From positions 1-13,566 of the forward strand of contig JASHUH010000425.1 in NCBI GenBank assembly GCA_030040115.1: a DNA stretch of 13,566 nt, given 5' to 3'. The notes under the pieces were generated by a model. It was not told the DNA's origin. It saw nothing but the letters and a program-made list of their open reading frames with translations, and ran no database searches. Numbering within the stretch: position 1 is the stretch's first letter; each line of letters opens with the position of its first letter. A program made the translations under genes and the position numbers. The DNA is from Acidobacteriaceae bacterium. Lineage in GTDB: Bacteria > Acidobacteriota > Terriglobia > Terriglobales > Acidobacteriaceae. Below are positions 2,802 through 11,085 of the stretch, one piece after another.

Positions 2802-4808
2802 TTATGGCAAGCTGGTTTGCGTTTCGAGCTGGGTCATCAGCTCTTCCCATTCCGCGGTGAGCGCAGATAACTGTGCGCGCAACTGCTCGGCCAGCGCCGC
2901 TAGGCGCCCGGTCTCGGCGGCTGAAACGTAAACGCCCAACTGTTGCTCGGTATGCGCAAGCGCGGCTTCGACGCGCGGAATCTCTTCTTCGAGGAAGGCG
3001 CAGCGGTCTTCCATCTGTTTCTGCTTGATGGGATTCAGACGCCGCGGACGGGCTCTCCCAGCATCAGACCCCGGCGCGCCGTCGCCGCCGTTCGCCGTGG
3101 CTGATCCGGCGACCGCCGCATGGTCCGGCGAATCTGCCGGACCGGCCGGTTCTATGGCGTTCGCGGCGGATTGCAGGTCATCCGCAGAGGATTGCGCCGC
3201 GGCCAGCGATTCTTTGCGGCGCAGATAATCCTCGTAATTGCCCTCGTACATGGTTACCGCGCCATTTTCAACCTCGAGCACACGCGTAGCCAGCCGATCG
3301 ATGAAATAGCGGTCGTGGGAGACGAAGATCACGGTTCCCGAAAACGCGGCCAAGGCTTCAAGGAGGACGTCTTTGGCGCGCATGTCGAGGTGGTTGGTCG
3401 GCTCGTCGAGAAGCAGGAAGTTCGACGGCGAGACCAGAATCCGCGCCAGCGCGTAGCGATTGCGCTCCCCGCCTGAGAGCACGCCGAGGGGCTTGAAGAC
3501 GTCGTCGCCGGAGAAAAGAAAGCAGCCGAGCAGGGAGCGCAGCTCCACCTCTGGAACTTTCATGGCGGCGCGGCTGATGTCGTCGAGGATGCGCGCTTCC
3601 GGGTCGAGCGCTTTGTATTGGTCCTGCGCGAAGTATTCGGTGACCACGTGATGGCCCAGCCGCACCGCGCCCTCGGTCGGCGCTTCGGCGCCGGTAAGCA
3701 GTTTGATCAGTGTCGATTTGCCCGCGCCGTTCACGCCCACCAGCGCCACGCGGTCCCTGCGCTCGATGCTGAAGCGCGCATGGGCGAAGACCTGCTTGGG
3801 GCCGTAGCTTTTGCCGAGACCCTCGGTCTCCACGACGACCCGTCCCGACGGCGCGGGTTGCGGGAACTTGAAGTGAATCGCCGGCTCTTCTTCGGGAATC
3901 TCGATGCGCTCGATCTTGTCGAGCTTCTTGATGCGCGACTGCACCTGTTTGGCCTTGGTGGCCTGGTAGCGGAAGCGATTGATGAACGCCTCCAGATGCT
4001 CGATCTGCCCGCGCTGGTTACGGTAGGCGGCCTCAAGCTGGGCGCGGCGCTCTTCCTTCTGCTTAAGGTACTTCGTAAAATTGCCCTGGTAAATGGTCAG
4101 GCGCTTGTTCCAGATTTCGACCGTGCGGTCGATGGTGACGTCGAGGAAGTAGCGGTCGTGGGAGATGAGAATGTAGCCGAAGGGATAATTTTTCAAATAA
4201 TCTCCGAGCCAGTTGCGGGATTCTAGATCGAGATGGTTGGTGGGCTCGTCGAGAAGCAGCAGATTGGGCTTGGCGAGGAGCAATTTGGCAAGCGCGATGC
4301 GCATCTGCCAGCCGCCGGAGAACTCATCAGTTTGGCGCGTCCAATCCTGTTTATCGAAGCCGAGGCCGGTGAGCACCGCGCCCACCTGCGCGTCGAGCGC
4401 GTAGCCGTCCAGGGCATGAAACCGTTCCTGCGACATCGAGTAGCGTTCCGCGGCGGAGGCATACTCCGCGCCGGCGTGATCGAGTTCGGCCATTTGCGCG
4501 GCGAGCGCGACCGCCTCGCGCTCCATAGCGCGAATCTCCTCGAAGACGGTAAGGCACTCCTCAAAGACTGTGCGGCCGGTGAGCTGCAATCCTTCCTGCG
4601 GCAGATAGCCGATGCTCATGCCGCGAGTCCGCTCGATGGCGCCGTAGTCGAGCGTCTCCAAGCCTGTCACCACCTTCATTAGCGTAGATTTGCCGGCCCC
4701 ATTGGCGCCGACCAGCGCGGTTTTTTCCTTGTCGCGGACGAGCCAGTTCGCCTCAAGGAAAAGCACCCTCGGCCCGAAGCGCTTGCCCGCATTTTGGAGA
4801 GAAAGCAT
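2802..4808 (-). CDS. ABC-F family ATPase (Uup-like)
   Basis: This 668-residue protein has two fused ABC ATPase domains and no membrane segments. Domain 1 has Walker A GANGAGKST (34-42), signature FSGGW (163-167), Walker B LLLLDEP (183-189) and switch ISHDRY (215-220). An Arg/Lys-rich helical linker (about 235-305) matches the P-site tRNA interaction motif region. Domain 2 has Walker A GVNGAGKST (358-366), LSGGE (444-448), LLLDEP (465-470) and VSHDRY (496-501). A low-complexity Ala/Gly/Asp-rich stretch (540-588) leads to a C-terminal coiled coil (about 594-660), as in Uup. ABC-F proteins act on ribosomes; some relieve stalling or protect from antibiotics, which cannot be told from sequence. 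The start is fixed by an in-frame TAA two codons upstream. The gene begins 6 nt after the preceding gene's stop, and its AAGAGG abuts the ATG, so translation is probably coupled. Confidence 0.95.
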   Translation of the reverse strand: MLSLQNAGKRFGPRVLFLEANWLVRDKEKTALVGANGAGKSTLMKVVTGLETLDYGAIERTRGMSIGYLPQEGLQLTGRTVFEECLTVFEEIRAMEREAVALAAQMAELDHAGAEYASAAERYSMSQERFHALDGYALDAQVGAVLTGLGFDKQDWTRQTDEFSGGWQMRIALAKLLLAKPNLLLLDEPTNHLDLESRNWLGDYLKNYPFGYILISHDRYFLDVTIDRTVEIWNKRLTIYQGNFTKYLKQKEERRAQLEAAYRNQRGQIEHLEAFINRFRYQATKAKQVQSRIKKLDKIERIEIPEEEPAIHFKFPQPAPSGRVVVETEGLGKSYGPKQVFAHARFSIERRDRVALVGVNGAGKSTLIKLLTGAEAPTEGAVRLGHHVVTEYFAQDQYKALDPEARILDDISRAAMKVPEVELRSLLGCFLFSGDDVFKPLGVLSGGERNRYALARILVSPSNFLLLDEPTNHLDMRAKDVLLEALAAFSGTVIFVSHDRYFIDRLATRVLEVENGAVTMYEGNYEDYLRRKESLAAAQSSADDLQSAANAIEPAGPADSPDHAAVAGSATANGGDGAPGSDAGRARPRRLNPIKQKQMEDRCAFLEEEIPRVEAALAHTEQQLGVYVSAAETGRLAALAEQLRAQLSALTAEWEELMTQLETQTSLP

Positions 4809-4814
4809 CCTCTT

Positions 4815-6398
4815 TTATTTTCGCAGAGAGTTTGCCGCGCAGCCGGCATCGGCGGCTGGCGCACCAGTGCTCGATATCGGAAGGCTATTTCCGCTTGCCG
4901 CAGGTCCGGGCGCATCCGGAATCTTGCAAACCGCATAGCCGCGCTGCTGATAGGGGCAGTTCATGCCTTCAGGCGCCGGCCCATGAATGATCGTCCAATT
5001 TACCGGGTACTCACGCGCCAACCGCAGGAAATCGTCTTTGCTGAAGTGGTCCAAGCCGTAGCTCGCGTTGCTCATCCGCTTCCATTCGGGGGCCAGAGCG
5101 GGAAAGATCGCTACTGCACCCCCGTCTTTGTAATAGTCGGCCAGAGAGGAGCGTGCGCTGACGGCGCGGAAACCATGCGCATCCACGCCGGGCTGCTCGA
5201 AGTAGCGGGAATCGACGGCAAAGATGGCGCCGGTGGGGGTATTGCGGCGAATCCAGAGCAAGGCGTTGACCCACGCGTTGGAGCTCGTCGCGCACCCCGG
5301 CCATTCAATGTGCGGGCTCGCGGGATAGGTGGCGCGCTGCACCGCGAACATCCCCGCGGCGAGGGGAACGCAGAGCGCCGGGATCGTCCAAGGGCGGCCC
5401 TTGGCCCAGTATTCGCCGATGATGCCGCCCAAAAAGAGGATGAAGATCATGGTGATCAGGTGAAAGCAGCGCAGCGGCTGCAGGCGGGCAAACATATCGA
5501 ATTCGTAAGAACTGGAAATGATGGCGGCGGCGAGAATCGAGATCGCCCCGAAGGGAAGCAGGGCCAGACTAAGCCGCGCGAACCCCGGCGTGATTCCGCG
5601 CAATTTAGCTTTCGAAAACCATAAAAGGAAGGCCAGCGGAGCCAGCAGTCCCAACCATGCGTACCACGGCCAGGTGAAGAGGAAATAGAAGTTGCGTGCG
5701 TAGAGAGCTTCACGATAGGGGCCTTGTGCAGGCCCAAACCCAAAACTGAGCGGCAGCGCCACCAGGACCGAAGCGGCGGCTGGAATCTCGCGTGCTTTGG
5801 CGGCGGCGACGCGCTCGACAAGCCAGGGCACGGATGCGAGAAAGACGAGGTACGCCGCCATTTGCGGATGAATGCCCGCGGTCACAATAGTCAGGAGCGT
5901 GGCGGGAAGATAGCGGCGCTCAAGAAACGCGGTGATGGCAAACAACGTGAGCGGAGTGGAGAACGAGCGCGCCGTGATGTAGGGATCCACCAGCATGAGC
6001 CCGGTGTTGGCGGCCGGCATGGTGAGCACGGCGGCGAAGATGAGCACCGCGGACCAGCGCGCGCGCTTGGCGCGAAAGCTTGCCAGCGCCAGCAGCCATG
6101 CGGCGACGAGAGTGGCGAAAACGGTGGCGATGTAGCAGAGAAAGAGCGTCCAATCCATCGAAAGGCGCGTGAGTTGCGCGGTCCAGGCCAGGAGGGGAGC
6201 GAAGAGCGACAGCCGTTCATGAGAGAGGAAAAACTCGCTCCCGTAGGGATAAAGCTGCGGATGAAGCAGCTTGCGCGCCGCGGGGATATAGATTTCGCCG
6301 TCGTCGACTCCAAGGTGGTAGCCGTGGACCGTGACGGCGGCGAGGGTGAGCAGACCCAGGCGCACCATCGGCAGACGCTGGTCTGGCGCTCCCTTCAT
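4815..6398 (-). CDS. Polytopic membrane protein, GT-C glycosyltransferase-like
   Basis: The protein has 527 residues. An N-terminal membrane segment (about 11-27) is followed by an acidic loop GVDDGEIYIP (30-39, with D32, D33, E35), the position and character of the catalytic loop in GT-C enzymes. About nine more hydrophobic segments follow (roughly 62-78, 84-105, 115-135, 145-158, 165-192, 205-222, 238-262, 275-295, 312-330, 336-352). A LQPLRCFHL motif (306-314) sits in a loop. Residues 378-495 form a soluble, probably periplasmic domain (WIRRNTPTGAIFAVDSRY; Cys481 and Cys491 could pair). GT-C enzymes use polyprenyl-phosphate sugars on the outer face of the inner membrane; assigning this protein to them is an inference. 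It lies 46 nt after the prenyltransferase gene and 6 nt before the ABC-F gene. The start is supported by AGAGG with a 5-nt spacer. Confidence 0.72.
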   Translation of the reverse strand: MKGAPDQRLPMVRLGLLTLAAVTVHGYHLGVDDGEIYIPAARKLLHPQLYPYGSEFFLSHERLSLFAPLLAWTAQLTRLSMDWTLFLCYIATVFATLVAAWLLALASFRAKRARWSAVLIFAAVLTMPAANTGLMLVDPYITARSFSTPLTLFAITAFLERRYLPATLLTIVTAGIHPQMAAYLVFLASVPWLVERVAAAKAREIPAAASVLVALPLSFGFGPAQGPYREALYARNFYFLFTWPWYAWLGLLAPLAFLLWFSKAKLRGITPGFARLSLALLPFGAISILAAAIISSSYEFDMFARLQPLRCFHLITMIFILFLGGIIGEYWAKGRPWTIPALCVPLAAGMFAVQRATYPASPHIEWPGCATSSNAWVNALLWIRRNTPTGAIFAVDSRYFEQPGVDAHGFRAVSARSSLADYYKDGGAVAIFPALAPEWKRMSNASYGLDHFSKDDFLRLAREYPVNWTIIHGPAPEGMNCPYQQRGYAVCKIPDAPGPAASGNSLPISSTGAPAADAGCAANSLRK

Positions 6399-6403
6399 GG
6401 CTT

Positions 6404-6408
6404 CCTCT
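6404..6408 (-). promoter_or_regulatory. Ribosome binding site AGAGG of the GT-C-like gene
   Basis: Read on the minus strand, AGAGG lies 5 nt before the ATG ending at 6398. It sits within the 46-nt gap after the prenyltransferase gene, which supports independent initiation inside an operon. Confidence 0.6.
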
Positions 6409-6444
6409 TGGATTCAGGTTAAATGCGCCCGGCGAAGGCAGGCG

Positions 6445-7419
6445 TTAGCGAATGCCCGACTTGGGGAAGATTTGCGCAAGCCAGGGGAAATGCACAAATG
6501 AGGTAACCACCAAAACCGTGCTGCACAGCGCCAGCAGCATCATGAGGCGAGGCTCGCGGTAAAGCTTCTCAGGATTCTGCACCGGACTGTCGTATTGGAA
6601 GGACAGCTTGAAATAGGCAGCCATCAGCAATGCAATGAAGGGAAACGCAAAGATCATCTCCATGCGGTAACGCATGATGAAGGCGCCGAAGAAGAGCATA
6701 GACGCCGAGGCGTAGAAAAGCACCGAAGTGAGCAAGGAATGCTGAGTATAAAAGACGAACGACTTCCGGTAGCGCTGGGCGCATTCGACGCCCATCTGGC
6801 GATATTCGCTGAACCGCTTCAGGCCCATGAAGTATGCGCCGAGCATCCAGTAGGCAAGGAGCATCGACGCGGGTGGAAGCACGGTGGTGGTGACGATATA
6901 CCAGCCCACGCAAAACCGGATGGGGTTGTTGATGGATTCCGCGAGAACGTCGAGATAGGGAACGTCCTTTAAGCGCAGCGGCGGCACGTTATACGCGCAC
7001 CCCATCACCCACAGGGTGGCAACAGAGATCAGTATCGGCGGGGATACGGCGACCGCCAGCAAAAAACCGGCGGCTCCCGAAAGCAGCCACTGAGCATAAG
7101 CGGCTGGCACATTGACGGCGCCCGACGCCGCGGGCCGCCTGCATTTGGTGGGGTGCAGGCGGTCAAAGGGAGCGTCGAGCAATTCATTGAGCACGTAGTT
7201 GCTGCTCGAGACCGCGACCACCGCGAAGAGCCCCAAAACTGTGCGCATGATCACGGCCGTGCTCAAGTCGGAGCCGACAATACTTGCCGCAATTATAATA
7301 CCGGGGATGACGAAAATTTGCTTGACGGAGTGATCGAGGCGAAATAGGCTCACGTGCGCGGCAATGCAACTGCGCAACCGGCTGCGGGTCGCGGCGGATG
7401 TGCTCGTAGCCAGGCTCAT
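6445..7419 (-). CDS. UbiA-superfamily prenyltransferase, decaprenyl-phosphate phosphoribosyltransferase-like
   Basis: The protein has 324 residues with about eight or nine membrane segments. Motif 1 is N78-x3-D82-x3-D86 followed by RLHPTKCRRPAASG (87-100), and motif 2 is the stretch from Y143 through LRLK to D157 (YNVPPLRLKDVPYLD). This combination, with HPTK-x-RP after the aspartates, matches the branch that includes mycobacterial Rv3806c, which transfers 5-phosphoribose from PRPP to polyprenyl phosphate, and the related NoeC of Azorhizobium. It is less like the aromatic-substrate UbiA enzymes. The product would be a polyprenyl-phosphoryl 5-phosphoribose in the inner membrane, a precursor for arabinose or ribose donors. 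It is the first gene of a minus-strand operon with the GT-C-like protein. No good ribosome site precedes the ATG (an AGGAA lies 16 nt away), so the start is slightly uncertain. Exact substrate is inferred. Confidence 0.85.
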   Translation of the reverse strand: MSLATSTSAATRSRLRSCIAAHVSLFRLDHSVKQIFVIPGIIIAASIVGSDLSTAVIMRTVLGLFAVVAVSSSNYVLNELLDAPFDRLHPTKCRRPAASGAVNVPAAYAQWLLSGAAGFLLAVAVSPPILISVATLWVMGCAYNVPPLRLKDVPYLDVLAESINNPIRFCVGWYIVTTTVLPPASMLLAYWMLGAYFMGLKRFSEYRQMGVECAQRYRKSFVFYTQHSLLTSVLFYASASMLFFGAFIMRYRMEMIFAFPFIALLMAAYFKLSFQYDSPVQNPEKLYREPRLMMLLALCSTVLVVTSFVHFPWLAQIFPKSGIR

Positions 7420-7448
7420 ATCGTTTTTATTGGATTTCCTTCACCCCG

Positions 7449-7454
7449 ATAATA
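7449..7454 (-). promoter_or_regulatory. Candidate -10 element TATTAT for the minus-strand operon
   Basis: Read on the minus strand, TATTAT lies about 30 nt before the prenyltransferase ATG. A hexamer at the usual -35 distance (GTTTAA) matches the consensus poorly, so this is a tentative promoter. Confidence 0.3.
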
Positions 7455-7800
7455 CGCGAGAATCGCGCCGATTAAACCGGAAACATGCTGCAATAGCCTC
7501 ATAGCTGCCCCCCGCGCGGAAGATGAGTGGCGAGGACTCGCAAGAGCGAAAAGAGCCGGACGGGGAAGAGCGGCTGAAATGCGGAGCCTGAAACGCCGGC
7601 TGAACTGAGGCGCCCGAGAAGCTGCTCAACGCCAGAGGTCAAAGCTGCTCGTATGCGCCTTGTGAAGCCGCAGGTGCCGCTTCGCCGCGAAGTAAACCTG
7701 GCCTTCCTCTCGTCCGTCATACAAACAAGCATAGATACGTTGAGCCTCGAAAATGTGGCCACGCCGAACCGAAAAGGGCGCCATCCTATTCCGAAGGGTG

Positions 7801-7805
7801 AAGGG
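7801..7805 (+). promoter_or_regulatory. Ribosome binding site AAGGG of the small membrane protein
   Basis: AAGGG lies 6 nt before ATG 7812. It selects this start over an in-frame ATG at 7653 that has no ribosome site and would bury the hydrophobic N-terminus. Confidence 0.6.
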
Positions 7806-7811
7806 CCCACA

Positions 7812-8063
7812 ATGCTAAAGCTGTCCCGAGTTTTTGGCTTTGCACTAATCATGATGGGCGCGACGATGTTGTTTGAACAGGCCGCTTACGGGTACACCGA
7901 TCCCGAAACAGGTTTGCTAGCTGTCCAGGCGGCTGGGGCGGCGCCGGTTGCGGCAGGTTGGTGTCTGCGCCGCAAAATTTATGCACTTCTACACCGGAGC
8001 ATTTCCGACAAGACAGAGCCGCCGGCTCAGGCGAACAACGAGCAAGACGCAACCCGGCCGTGA
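7812..8063 (+). CDS. Small membrane protein with YTDPETG motif
   Basis: The protein has 83 residues. An N-terminal hydrophobic stretch (5-22) could be a signal or membrane anchor. YTDPETG (28-34) comes next, then a second hydrophobic helix (about 35-51), the basic CLRRK segment (51-55), and a polar tail that is probably cytoplasmic. Short proteins with a Y-x-DP-x-(S/T)G motif followed by one helix and basic residues recur next to NoeA-like methyltransferase and sulfatase-fold genes; this statement is from general familiarity with such loci and their function is unknown. Its stop overlaps the GTG start of the methyltransferase by 4 nt, so it leads a coupled three-gene operon. A role as a membrane partner or scaffold for the next two proteins is an inference. 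Confidence 0.75.
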   Translation: MLKLSRVFGFALIMMGATMLFEQAAYGYTDPETGLLAVQAAGAAPVAAGWCLRRKIYALLHRSISDKTEPPAQANNEQDATRP

Positions 8064-9550
8064 AGACCCAAAGCGATTCCGTGCAGCCCGATCTTCTCCC
8101 AGCCGAGCACTCCGAAATGCTGGAGTTGACCTTCCGCGATTCGGCCGGTCAGCTTCGGCTTACGGAAAACTGCGCCTTGCGGCGAATTCACCCCGGAGCT
8201 GAAGAAGCTACGCGCGATTTTCTTACTTCTCCGTTGCGCGCCACCCTCGAGGGCAGCGGCGATCTGATCGCCAGCAGGATTGCAGATCCTTGTCAGTATT
8301 CATGCGTGCGGCCAAGCGAATTGTGGCTGGAACATCCGCGCATCGATCCGCTCAGCTCCCCCTGGGAATGGTCGGCGGGGCAATGGCAGGCTGCCGCGGA
8401 GCTAACCCTGCGCATTGAGGTCCAAGCTGTCGAAGCTGGCTGGACGCTGAAAGACGCTACTCCGCTCAACATCCTCTTCTTGGGAGCGCGGCCCATCCTG
8501 GTGGATGTCCTCTCACTTGAACGCCGCGACCCGCGATCGAGCGTTTGGCTGGCTTACGCGCAATTTGTGCGCACGTTTCTTCTTCCGCTGGTGGCGGCGA
8601 AATCTCTCGGCTGGCCATTACAAAACACGCTCTTCGAGCGTGACGGATACGAGCCGCGTGCGATCTATCGCGCACTTAATCCGTGGCGGCGTTTCCATCC
8701 CGACCTGTTCGACGTGGTCACACTGGCGGCATGGTTCGAGAACGCGAGGAAAGAAACAAAAAGAACGCGCGCAGATCCCGCTCCGCGCGATCTGGAACTT
8801 GTAACCCACATTCTCCGCTGCCGCATCGCCCGGCTGCTCAAGCAAACGCGCCGCGCCACGCCCGGCGGGAACCGAAGCCGGTGGAGCGATTACACGCAGT
8901 GGGCCGGCCATTATAGCGCGGCGGATCTCGGCGCCAAGCAGCAATTTATGCGCTTCGTCCTGGAGCGTTGGCGGCCCGCACGAGTGCTCGATATCGGAGC
9001 CAATGCGGGAGTGTACTCGCTGTTGGCGGCCGAGGCCGGGGCGCAGGTAGCGGCTCTCGACAATGACGCCGGAGCTATCGAGCAATTGTGGAGAACCGCC
9101 GCCCGGCAGTCGAAGCCCATCACCGCCCTGGCGGCGAACATTGCCCGTCCTACGCCTGCGGCGGGTTGGAGAAATCGCGAACATCTTTCACTCCTCGATC
9201 GACTGAGCGGGAGTTTCGATCTGGTGCTGATGCTGGCGGTGCTTCATCACCTCATCTTGCGCGAGCAGTTGCCCTTGGGACATGTTGCCGAACTCTGCGC
9301 CTGGCTCACGCGCCGCTGGCTTGTGCTGGAATGGGTTCCACCTTCAGATCCCATGCATCAAGAGTGGCTGCGCGGCCGGGATCACCTCTATGGGCAGCTC
9401 TCGGAGAGCGATCGGATGGAGGCTTTTTCTTCGTATTTTCAAATTGCCCGTCGCATCCCCCTGGCCGATCATCGGGTGCTTTTGCTGTTCGAGCGCCGCG
9501 CCGGCGACACCGGCCTGGAGCAACCGGGGCCGGGAGCCGGCCGGGCATGA
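8060..9550 (+). CDS. NoeA-like two-domain SAM-dependent methyltransferase
   Basis: The protein has 496 residues from the GTG start chosen here, which overlaps the previous stop as GTGA. An ATG at 8117 is an alternative; neither has a strong ribosome site. Residues 20-260 form a conserved N-terminal domain with WLEHPRIDP (89-97), WTLKDATPLNILF (128-140), VDVLSLERRDP (148-158) and AQFVRTFLLP (167-176). Residues 290-480 are a class I methyltransferase domain: motif I VLDIGANAGVYS (309-320), acidic loop ALDND (332-336), and FDLVLMLAVLHHL (386-398). The family is named for rhizobial NoeA, a host-specific nodulation protein whose exact substrate is not settled. The protein has no signal peptide and should be cytoplasmic. 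The D132-x4-N137-x11-D149 spacing recalls the active site of kinase-like folds. Its stop overlaps the next start as ATGA. Confidence 0.86.
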   Translation: MKTQSDSVQPDLLPAEHSEMLELTFRDSAGQLRLTENCALRRIHPGAEEATRDFLTSPLRATLEGSGDLIASRIADPCQYSCVRPSELWLEHPRIDPLSSPWEWSAGQWQAAAELTLRIEVQAVEAGWTLKDATPLNILFLGARPILVDVLSLERRDPRSSVWLAYAQFVRTFLLPLVAAKSLGWPLQNTLFERDGYEPRAIYRALNPWRRFHPDLFDVVTLAAWFENARKETKRTRADPAPRDLELVTHILRCRIARLLKQTRRATPGGNRSRWSDYTQWAGHYSAADLGAKQQFMRFVLERWRPARVLDIGANAGVYSLLAAEAGAQVAALDNDAGAIEQLWRTAARQSKPITALAANIARPTPAAGWRNREHLSLLDRLSGSFDLVLMLAVLHHLILREQLPLGHVAELCAWLTRRWLVLEWVPPSDPMHQEWLRGRDHLYGQLSESDRMEAFSSYFQIARRIPLADHRVLLLFERRAGDTGLEQPGPGAGRA

Positions 9551-11085
9551 TGAAGCGGATTGCACAAGCCTGGGCGCTGGCGGCCATTGTGCTGCTGCCG
9601 AATTACATCGACTTGACTTCCGGGGACGGGGATGCGCGGATGAGAGTTGCCACTCCGCTCACGCGCATCGCACTGGCGCATCTGACGGACATGGCGATCG
9701 TCACCGGGCTGTTCGCCGGCGCAATCGCGCTGCTGCGCAAAGCGCCCTGGTGGCCAAGGCTGCGCTGGGCCTGGATCGGACTGTTGCCGCCACTTCTGTT
9801 CATCCGCAATCTCAATCTGATTCCCTTCCACGTGCCGGCGGCCGTTATCGGGGCGGCAAGCGCTGTGTGGATCGGCCTGTTGGTCCTTCTTGGCTTGCGC
9901 TTTCCTCAAGCGGCGCCGGGACTTGGCCGCGCGGGCAGCGCGCTGCTGGCGGGATTTGCGTGCTTTGCCCTGGTGATGACCGCTCAACTGGTGCGCGCCA
10001 CCGTCTGGCGACCCGGGCCGCAGGCCTTCGCGGCGCCGATTCCGGCGCCGACCGCGACCAAGCCGCGACTGGTTTGGATCCTCTTCGACGAGCTTGCCTA
10101 TCAGCAGACCTTTGGAAGCCGCGATCCTTCGCTCCATCTGCCCAACTTCGACCGTCTCCGCGCCGAGAGCACGCTCTACACGCACGTGACGCCCATCGCA
10201 TATCGCACCACGCGCGCGGCGCCGAGCCTTTTGCTCGGCCGCATGGTTACGAATGTCGCCTATGCGGCGGATAACCGTTATTGGGTGGAAACGAGGCGCG
10301 ACCCGCATTGGGCGCGCTTCGACGCCGGCGCTTCGCTGTTCGGTCTGGCCAAGCGCGAGGGCGTGACGACGGCCATCGTGGGTTGGTATATCGCGTACTG
10401 CCCGGTTTTCGCCGGGCTGGTCACGCAATGCTATTGGAGCAACGACGACGCGCAGGACCGGGGCCCCACATCGCTCGACGCCAGCTATGGAGAGGACGTA
10501 TGGTTTCCGCTGCGCATGCTGGCCGAACAGGCCTTTGCGCCGGAGCGAGCCTGGGCCGACGATGCTCGCTGGGGTGCCGAGGGGCATATCGCCTCAGTAA
10601 AAGACCTGAGTTGGCACGCTATGAAGACGCTGGCGACCAGCAACGCGGATCTGATTTTTCTGCATCTGCCGACGCCGCACCCTCCGGCCTTTTGGAACCG
10701 GCGCATCGCTGAATTCGCCATCGGCGGATCGTATCTCGATTCGCTCGATTATACGGACCGGCTTCTGGGCCGGATGCTTACCGTGCTCGAAGCGCAGCCG
10801 CGCTGGGCCGCGACCACGCTTCTGGTGCAGGGCGATCATGCGTGGCGCACGCCCATGTGGCGGCCGCTGCCGGGCTGGAGCGCCGAAGACGAGCGCGTCT
10901 CGCATGGCGGCGCGTGGGACCCGCGTCCGGTGCTGATGATCCACGCGGCGGGCCAACAGGCGCCGCACACCGTGGGCGCGCCAACCAGCCTGATGTACGT
11001 TCACGACTTCGTCGCCCAACAGATTCAGCTTCTGGGCGGGTTCAAGAAAAGCGATCTCAGAAACGAAAGACCAGGCCGGTGGTGA
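9547..11085 (+). CDS. Membrane-anchored alkaline-phosphatase/sulfatase-superfamily hydrolase or transferase
   Basis: The protein has 512 residues from ATG 9547, which overlaps the methyltransferase stop. Upstream in-frame codons overlap that gene and are not used. Five predicted membrane helices (about 5-22, 40-63, 72-90, 95-118, 130-153) precede a periplasmic domain (173-500). That domain opens with VWILFDELAYQQTF (D181, E182 as metal ligands), followed by YRTTRAAPSLLLGR (219-232) at the nucleophile site, H373 and H378, QGDH (428-431), and SHGG (452-455). This layout is shared with LtaS, EptA and sulfatases. The site lacks the C/S-x-P-x-R signature needed for formylglycine, so Thr221 or Thr222 is the likely nucleophile, favouring phosphate-ester chemistry or phosphoalcohol transfer over sulfatase activity. 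The substrate is unknown; the context suggests an envelope glycan or lipid. The last 9 or so codons overlap the convergent barrel gene. Confidence 0.85.
   Translation: MMKRIAQAWALAAIVLLPNYIDLTSGDGDARMRVATPLTRIALAHLTDMAIVTGLFAGAIALLRKAPWWPRLRWAWIGLLPPLLFIRNLNLIPFHVPAAVIGAASAVWIGLLVLLGLRFPQAAPGLGRAGSALLAGFACFALVMTAQLVRATVWRPGPQAFAAPIPAPTATKPRLVWILFDELAYQQTFGSRDPSLHLPNFDRLRAESTLYTHVTPIAYRTTRAAPSLLLGRMVTNVAYAADNRYWVETRRDPHWARFDAGASLFGLAKREGVTTAIVGWYIAYCPVFAGLVTQCYWSNDDAQDRGPTSLDASYGEDVWFPLRMLAEQAFAPERAWADDARWGAEGHIASVKDLSWHAMKTLATSNADLIFLHLPTPHPPAFWNRRIAEFAIGGSYLDSLDYTDRLLGRMLTVLEAQPRWAATTLLVQGDHAWRTPMWRPLPGWSAEDERVSHGGAWDPRPVLMIHAAGQQAPHTVGAPTSLMYVHDFVAQQIQLLGGFKKSDLRNERPGRW

Follow-up and report, generated by a model that had tools for sequence, protein, structure and literature searches.

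A predicted noeA-noeB cassette divergent from a phosphoribosyltransferase-like UbiA gene pair in an Acidobacteriaceae contig

We examined if two divergent operons of an Acidobacteriaceae bacterium (assembly GCA_030040115.1, contig JASHUH010000425.1) encode a single envelope-glycan decoration system, or two systems that happen to adjoin. The window, i.e., the whole analysed stretch of 13,566 nucleotides (nt), is a single contig of a 4.1-Mb, 85%-complete genome, labelled G000 among the compared genomes. A preliminary description had proposed that five genes, in a divergent two-operon arrangement, join a lipid-linked pentose pathway to glycan methylation and phospho-substitution. All five open reading frames (ORFs) were confirmed at the placement given there, and their coordinates bear out the divergent arrangement with both of its 4-nt overlaps. 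On balance we favour the reading that two envelope-glycan modules, a pentose-lipid pair and a noeA-noeB cassette, stand back to back. The homology, the gene order and the conserved active-site residues are direct observations; from them we infer all of the substrates, the topology, the phosphatase, the flippase and any target shared by both modules.

The rightward operon and the noeA-noeB cassette

As judged from its predicted proteins, the rightward operon is a complete noeA-noeB cassette, with a NoeB homologue encoded immediately downstream of the NoeA-like gene and an ORF with a YxDPGxG motif immediately upstream. The three plus-strand genes encode a small membrane protein of 83 amino acids (aa) (7812..8063, ATG start; signal-like N-terminus, AYG, YTDPETG, hydrophobic stretch and basic residues), a NoeA-like protein of 496 aa (8060..9550, GTG start; N-terminal kinase-like part and C-terminal class I S-adenosylmethionine (SAM) methyltransferase, Methyltransf_11/12 E about 5e-6), and a NoeB-like, membrane-anchored enzyme of the alkaline-phosphatase (AP) superfamily of 512 aa (9547..11085, ATG start; Pfam Sulfatase E 5.2e-11, NoeB residues). 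The overlaps are at 8060-8063 (GTGA) and 9547-9550 (ATGA).

The NoeA-like protein and the annotated NoeA of S. meliloti aligned nearly end to end (29% over 470 columns, pairwise E 4e-41), bearing out the earlier description of the former as a NoeA-like methyltransferase, and a tblastn search of plasmids gave E about 1e-29 for the NoeA match. In an alignment of 53 sequences (52 of the 80 loci described below, and the window), R41, K131, D132, N137 and D149 of the kinase part and D311, G313, N315 and G317 of the SAM part were invariant in 53/53; S. meliloti NoeA shares R41, D132, N137, D149 and D311-x-G-x-N. The AlphaFold2 model (predicted local distance difference test score, pLDDT, 89.4; predicted template modelling score, pTM, 0.89) has an N-terminal secondary structure compatible with a kinase fold. 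The kinase plus methyltransferase nature of the protein is not new, because it is already in PMC9758233, passages of which state a kinase fold for a NoeA homologue and describe NoeA-type proteins as kinase plus methyltransferase with conserved neighbours. Among the matches listed, the closest named ones were from Acidobacteriaceae metagenome genomes. A second NoeA-like paralogue (46%) is encoded in the window's own genome (G000:C232:845-2227).

For the AP-fold enzyme, D181, T221, H373, H378, D430 and H431 were invariant in 16 sequences including NoeB, and a profile of 65 cassette AP-fold sequences matched S. meliloti NoeB with E 5.3e-7 among six-frame ORFs. When this profile was compared with the PDB, the matches (60 of 65 listed) were mostly sulfatases, and also phosphonate monoester hydrolases and lipoteichoic acid primase/synthase. 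Formylglycine sulfatases carry a CxPxR signature; that identity was ruled out for the AP-fold enzyme by Thr at the nucleophile position. Thr-221 is the predicted nucleophile, and a Thr in this place would point to phospho-transfer or hydrolysis. The periplasmic phosphatase/sulfatase-fold gene of the preliminary description thus stands as an AP-superfamily member, and the assignment is extended here to a NoeB homologue that forms one cassette with the small protein.

Small proteins were compared in a set of 68 (63 from the 80 cassette loci, 4 from plasmid loci, and the window). An A-x-A-like site lies directly ahead of the motif Tyr in 54/68, a Met lies within two residues of it in 3/68, and a hydrophobic stretch follows the motif in all 68. 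The YxDPGxG motif is predicted to be the mature N-terminus, positioned outside, of a protein with one membrane helix, and this placement is new here; a search of the accessible papers for YxDPGxG motif strings returned unrelated ones only, as judged by title and start of abstract. The window's YTDPETG is the sole member of the 68 with E at the fifth place; one other reads YIDPAAG and the remaining 66 have G there.

The cassette is widespread. Scanning genome contigs with ten aligned NoeA-like proteins gave at least 573 stretches, of which the best 80 were kept for neighbourhood counts; by their titles, these 80 span Acidobacteria, Verrucomicrobia, Proteobacteria, Chloroflexi, Gemmatimonadetes, Lentisphaerae, Rokubacteria and candidate phyla. 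Among them, a YxDPGxG ORF was upstream of the NoeA-like gene in 62/79 assessable loci (0.003 expected per locus), and an AP-fold gene was immediately downstream in 51/73. Seven of the 22 AP-fold misses have such a gene elsewhere in the flanks. Also among the misses is a Granulicella/Edaphobacter set whose stretches lack both neighbours. In each of the 14 other genomes where the NoeA-like orthologue (61-68% identity) is unbroken, the small, NoeA-like and AP-fold genes lie together. The broken copy of genome G007 has neither cassette neighbour beside it; that gene is in two pieces (G007:C315; L040, L128), and the genome's UbiA/GT-C/small/AP-fold locus lies elsewhere.

The plasmid tblastn search gave 65 records, 57 of them Sinorhizobium; among the 30 matches listed, four were annotated noeA (H9, H10, H26, H27), and the other Sinorhizobium rows had no feature or annotation there. 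S. meliloti ml46 has, in order, nodL, a 71-aa ORF, noeA and noeB; Rhizobium sp. T136 has nodL, a 71-aa ORF, a SAM methyltransferase and a sulfatase-like gene. The 71-aa ORFs upstream of noeA in Sinorhizobium/Rhizobium contain YLDPGTG after a signal-like stretch, and similar small ORFs precede NoeA-like genes on Singulisphaera and Gemmatirosa plasmids.

The leftward UbiA and GT-C-like genes

On the minus strand lie a UbiA-superfamily gene (6445..7419, 324 aa, polyprenyl-phosphate phosphoribosyltransferase-like; Pfam UbiA E 1.8e-21) and, after a 46-nt gap, a gene for a polytopic membrane protein resembling glycosyltransferases of the GT-C type (4815..6398, 527 aa). The UbiA protein matched the mycobacterial enzyme Rv3806c in a phmmer comparison (E 7.4e-8), and its pocket was assessed at the 11 Rv3806c residues that contact phosphoribosyl pyrophosphate (PRPP) or Mg (PMC10994848, section 10; Rv3806c numbering throughout). 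Nine of these are kept, R22, K28, Y70, N73, D77, K87, R90, Y138 and K143, as are D81 and R160. The pocket alignment was made from retrieved stretches only and had 34 rows (the window, 30 relatives and 3 plasmid homologues); 18/47 phylum matches were retrieved and 16 of these gave a UbiA ORF, and the genes of G016, G021, G189 and G364, missed by ORF calling, were left out. The kept contacts are invariant in 34/34 rows, save K28 (K in 30, R in 4). A more distant UbiA group (L188, L194, L195, L196) has R at K28; it is adjoined by a conserved gene (cluster c3; Methyltransf_23 in the one scanned) in 4/4 and by another two conserved genes (c15, c16) in 3.

The window enzyme is likely phosphoribosyltransferase-like, by its predicted pocket, and would make a lipid-linked pentose donor; the residues thus support the corresponding claim of the preliminary description. 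The rival possibility, that it is an aromatic or other prenyltransferase with no link to PRPP, we consider improbable. The latter would fit the two changed contacts, Q135G and Y157N, and the replacements that run through the clade (E at D74 in 34/34 rows, G/A/S at Q135, N at Y157); passages of PMC11127046 report that the D74-equivalent residue is needed in C. youngae ORF15, and Lys208 varies among the relatives. It would also fit scores below every curated NCBIfam cut-off (69 bits vs 234 for the DPPRS model, i.e., that of decaprenylphosphoryl-5-phosphoribose (DPPR) synthase; 80 vs 351 for the best model, PRK08238). What speaks against an aromatic enzyme is that K28, Y70, K87 and R160 are all absent from E. 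coli UbiA, CyoE, MenA and the second UbiA of the genome, R160 being common to the window clade and annotated DPPRS, and that homologues of the window gene are neighboured by GT-C, HAD and GtrA genes. In a tree of 32 rows, four DPPRS rows form one clade (support 98/92), CyoE, UbiA and the genome's other UbiA are placed apart, and the window sequences form their own clade, the deep kin of which the tree leaves unresolved, with MenA unplaced on a very long branch. On whether the protein groups with aromatic-substrate UbiA enzymes, as the preliminary description had asked, the residues therefore say no and the tree leaves the placement open. The clade with E74, G/A/S135 and N157 is, by its predicted pocket, distinct and new in this analysis. 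A partial UbiA match in S. fredii, a short frame without most pocket residues, was set aside.

The 527-aa protein is predicted to be GT-C-like because of its acidic loop-1 motif, which we take to be a GT-C hallmark, and its operon context. D33 and E35 of 'GVDDGEIYIPA' are invariant across 12 aligned rows, and 12/12 aligned members match DUF6798 (best E 1.2e-6), the domain that in the window protein falls below cut-off in the C-terminal part (E 0.0015). Such a neighbour recurs beside UbiA homologues, which supports the proposed partnership: a same-strand DUF6798-type or PMT_2 gene adjoins 14/28 resolved UbiA loci (at least 40% identity), namely those of G000, G007, G031, G039, G040, G048, G050, G054, G146, G312, G227, G275 and G328, and that of G021, where the neighbour is a 31% paralogue. 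Five of the 14 (G312, G146, G227, G275, G328) are from other genera. A HAD gene neighbours 2/28 loci (G313, G271), and among the three annotated plasmid UbiA loci HAD is beside two and GtrA beside three. Relatives of the GT-C-like protein (E 1e-8) occur in 58/99 near genomes and 56/59 within the genus, and a closer group (at least 56% identity) in 30/59 same-genus genomes, one as a fragment; UbiA orthologues occur in 17/99 and 16/59. The GT-C-like relatives are far commoner, and the protein is therefore not dependent on this UbiA.

One system or two modules

We propose that the UbiA-like enzyme would move phosphoribose from PRPP onto polyprenyl phosphate at the inner membrane face, that the pentose donor would be completed by a phosphatase and flipped by a flippase, both encoded elsewhere, and that the GT-C-like protein would pass the pentose to a periplasmic glycan. 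In the cassette, the NoeA-like enzyme would phosphorylate a sugar and methylate either that sugar or, in the manner of WbdD, the phosphate. The phospho-substituent would be handled or transferred in the periplasm by the Thr-dependent NoeB-like enzyme. The small YxDPGxG protein may be a membrane-anchored accessory with its motif as mature N-terminus.

In addition to the pocket changes, missed cut-offs and deep tree given above, several observations weigh against this proposal. For the cassette, the 50 matches listed in a Foldseek search with the whole NoeA-like model were all methyltransferase structures, including NodS and WbdD; the window AP-fold enzyme and NoeB compare pairwise with an E of only 7e-4, a remote relation; in 11/68 small proteins both an A-x-A site and a nearby Met are lacking, and only 28/68 pass a basic-tail test (net +3). 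For the pair, a profile of the GT-C-like alignment had two PDB matches (E 0.06), judged to be chance, and an AlphaFold model from four input sequences was discarded as unusable (pLDDT 38). No MATE or GtrA flippase gene is within the window, a search of the 85%-complete own genome for GtrA (PF04138) found none, its MATE matches are elsewhere and none is near the locus, and G054, which is 97% complete and holds all five genes, has no MATE match. As to the sugar itself, which may be ribose or arabinose, a search of the own genome for DprE1 of the arabinose branch gave seven FAD_binding_4 matches, of which two were inspected; the one scored is of sugar-lactone-oxidase type and below cut-offs.

The two modules may, alternatively, be mere neighbours in this lineage that act on different molecules, to which we give nearly an even chance. 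Each half is found singly: the cassette without UbiA in G006, G013, G029, G034, G037 and G045, and the UbiA/GT-C-like pair without the cassette in G031 (100% complete) and G048. In the latter, a short contig (C442; L052, 1-3131) matches window 4711-7672 and, 27 nt farther on, 10809-10937 in colinear order, so that it lacks the small gene, the NoeA-like gene and the greater part of the AP-fold gene; this may be a deletion remnant, or it could represent misassembly. UbiA was in the flanks of only 4/80 cassette loci (the best 80 of at least 573), all four from the window's genus, which fits mere neighbours and goes against a single system.

Co-occurrence counts (the p-values ignore phylogeny and incomplete genomes) speak against mere neighbours close to the window and for them farther away. 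In the genus (59 genomes), UbiA was in 16, a cassette NoeA in 16 (one broken), and both in 10 vs 4.3 expected (p 0.0005), or, with the broken G007 copy left out, in 9 vs 4.1 (p 0.002). Seven of the ten have UbiA beside a full cassette (G000, G016, G019, G023, G039, G050, G054); in G007 it is beside the small and AP-fold genes only, G040 fits a contig break, and in G021 the two are apart. All five genes were on one contig in 4/99 near relatives (G000, G039, G050, G054). In the family (250 genomes, E 1e-70), UbiA was in 28, NoeA-like genes in 47, and both in 14 vs 5.3 expected (p 6e-5); counted by genera, both were in 7/79 vs 3.3 (p 0.016). The window alone among these 14 has them close, with four at about 185-230 kb, one at megabases and eight on different contigs, i.e., 13/14 on different contigs or at least about 185 kb apart. 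The phylum sample (297 genomes) had NoeA-like genes in 60, UbiA in 47 and both in 15 vs 9.5 expected (p 0.03); its family part had both in 10/31 vs 5.5, and outside the family the count was 5/266 vs 6.0.

A further point against mere neighbours is G312, a genome of another genus that was not part of the 250-genome family sample, where NoeA-like, AP-fold, GT-C-like and UbiA genes lie on one strand within 12.3 kb (L179 2160-14449). The chance of such closeness is about 0.02, a rough figure, over the six genomes of the phylum sample besides the window with both on one contig; no YxDPGxG match was found in that stretch. Together with the adjacency and co-occurrence excess in the genus, and the excess in the family, G312 would also suit a single system in which the noeAB-like enzymes phosphorylate or methylate the very pentose added by the UbiA/GT-C pair. 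We hold this to be rather unlikely, given the frequent dissociation in both directions, the usual distance in the family and the absence of association outside it. The single decoration system of the preliminary description thus keeps the family co-occurrence and the G312 cluster in its favour, and is weakened by the 4/80 flanks, the frequent separation in the genus and the lack of excess outside the family; the conserved neighbourhood that was to be checked held in the genus and mostly did not beyond it. With the excess in the family, mostly far apart, and none outside, one shared pathway is therefore possible only. The NoeC/NoeA parallel drawn earlier is weak, in that passages of PMC4053727 list noeAB and noeCHOP for different Sinorhizobium species (noeAB for S. 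meliloti/medicae, noeCHOP for S. saheli); passages of PMC2443382 treat noeCHOP in connection with the arabinosylation of Nod factors in Azorhizobium.

Improbable, in our estimate, is a broader proposal, that noeA-noeB cassettes may be a general membrane system by which surface or lipid-linked sugars receive a methyl-phosphate or other phospho mark, the YxDPGxG peptide serving at the periplasmic face as a docking or acceptor subunit, and that in this family the mark would be set on a pentose which the UbiA/GT-C pair supplies through a variant phosphoribosyl donor chemistry (E74/G135/N157 clade).

The divergent operons are separated by 392 nt (7420..7811). A consensus scan of 7380-7850 found no sigma-70-like promoter and no terminator pattern, and an Rfam search gave no match. 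Elsewhere in the window are an ABC-F ATPase gene (2802-4808), which in G031, G050, G029, G039 and G054 also lies no more than about 4 kb from the GT-C-like gene, and a DUF4382/DUF5666 lipoprotein-like ORF (939-2666).

Comparison with known systems

The three-gene cassette is widespread in free-living bacteria, which offers simple organisms for finding the noeA-noeB chemistry, and rhizobia may have taken over an envelope-glycan tool. The genes were named as host-range genes in 1995 (by a title that PMC9758233 and PMC4053727 both cite), and in the literature consulted the NoeA/NoeB reaction is so far a suggestion. The UbiA clade adds to the lipid-sugar synthases that probably use PRPP, and supplies residue markers.

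For the leftward pair, the best model is, by our analysis, the three-component pentofuranose systems (PPPRS, MATE flippase and GT-C enzyme GT136) described in passages of PMC11127046. The window shares the predicted UbiA-fold phosphoribosyltransferase and the GT-C-like gene, and differs in having no phosphatase domain, no adjacent flippase, a DUF6798-type GT-C-like protein and changed D74/Q135/Y157 equivalents. With the mycobacterial DPPR synthase Rv3806c (PDB 8j8j) it shares the 9/11 PRPP/Mg contacts, and differs by D74E, Q135G, Y157N and a score below the DPPRS cut-off.

The O-antigen chain terminator WbdD has a kinase and a SAM methyltransferase in one protein, as predicted for the window, presumably in reversed domain order relative to the NoeA-like protein. 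Its Foldseek match (4azt, E 9e-7) covers about 200 columns, too short for both domains, and its sequence match is marginal (E 0.08). The Lani_1193-1195/NoeA family in passages of PMC9758233 has the same kinase plus methyltransferase fusion and conserved neighbours that include an AP-fold protein (65% and 38% of 816 neighbourhoods); those passages make no mention of a YxDPGxG motif, unlike the cassette described here. From S. meliloti nodL-noeA-noeB, the window differs by its acidobacterial host, the absence of nod genes, a remote NoeB and the adjoining divergent UbiA/GT-C pair; the two have in common the order of small YxDPGxG ORF, NoeA and NoeB, and the metal and nucleophile residues of the AP superfamily.

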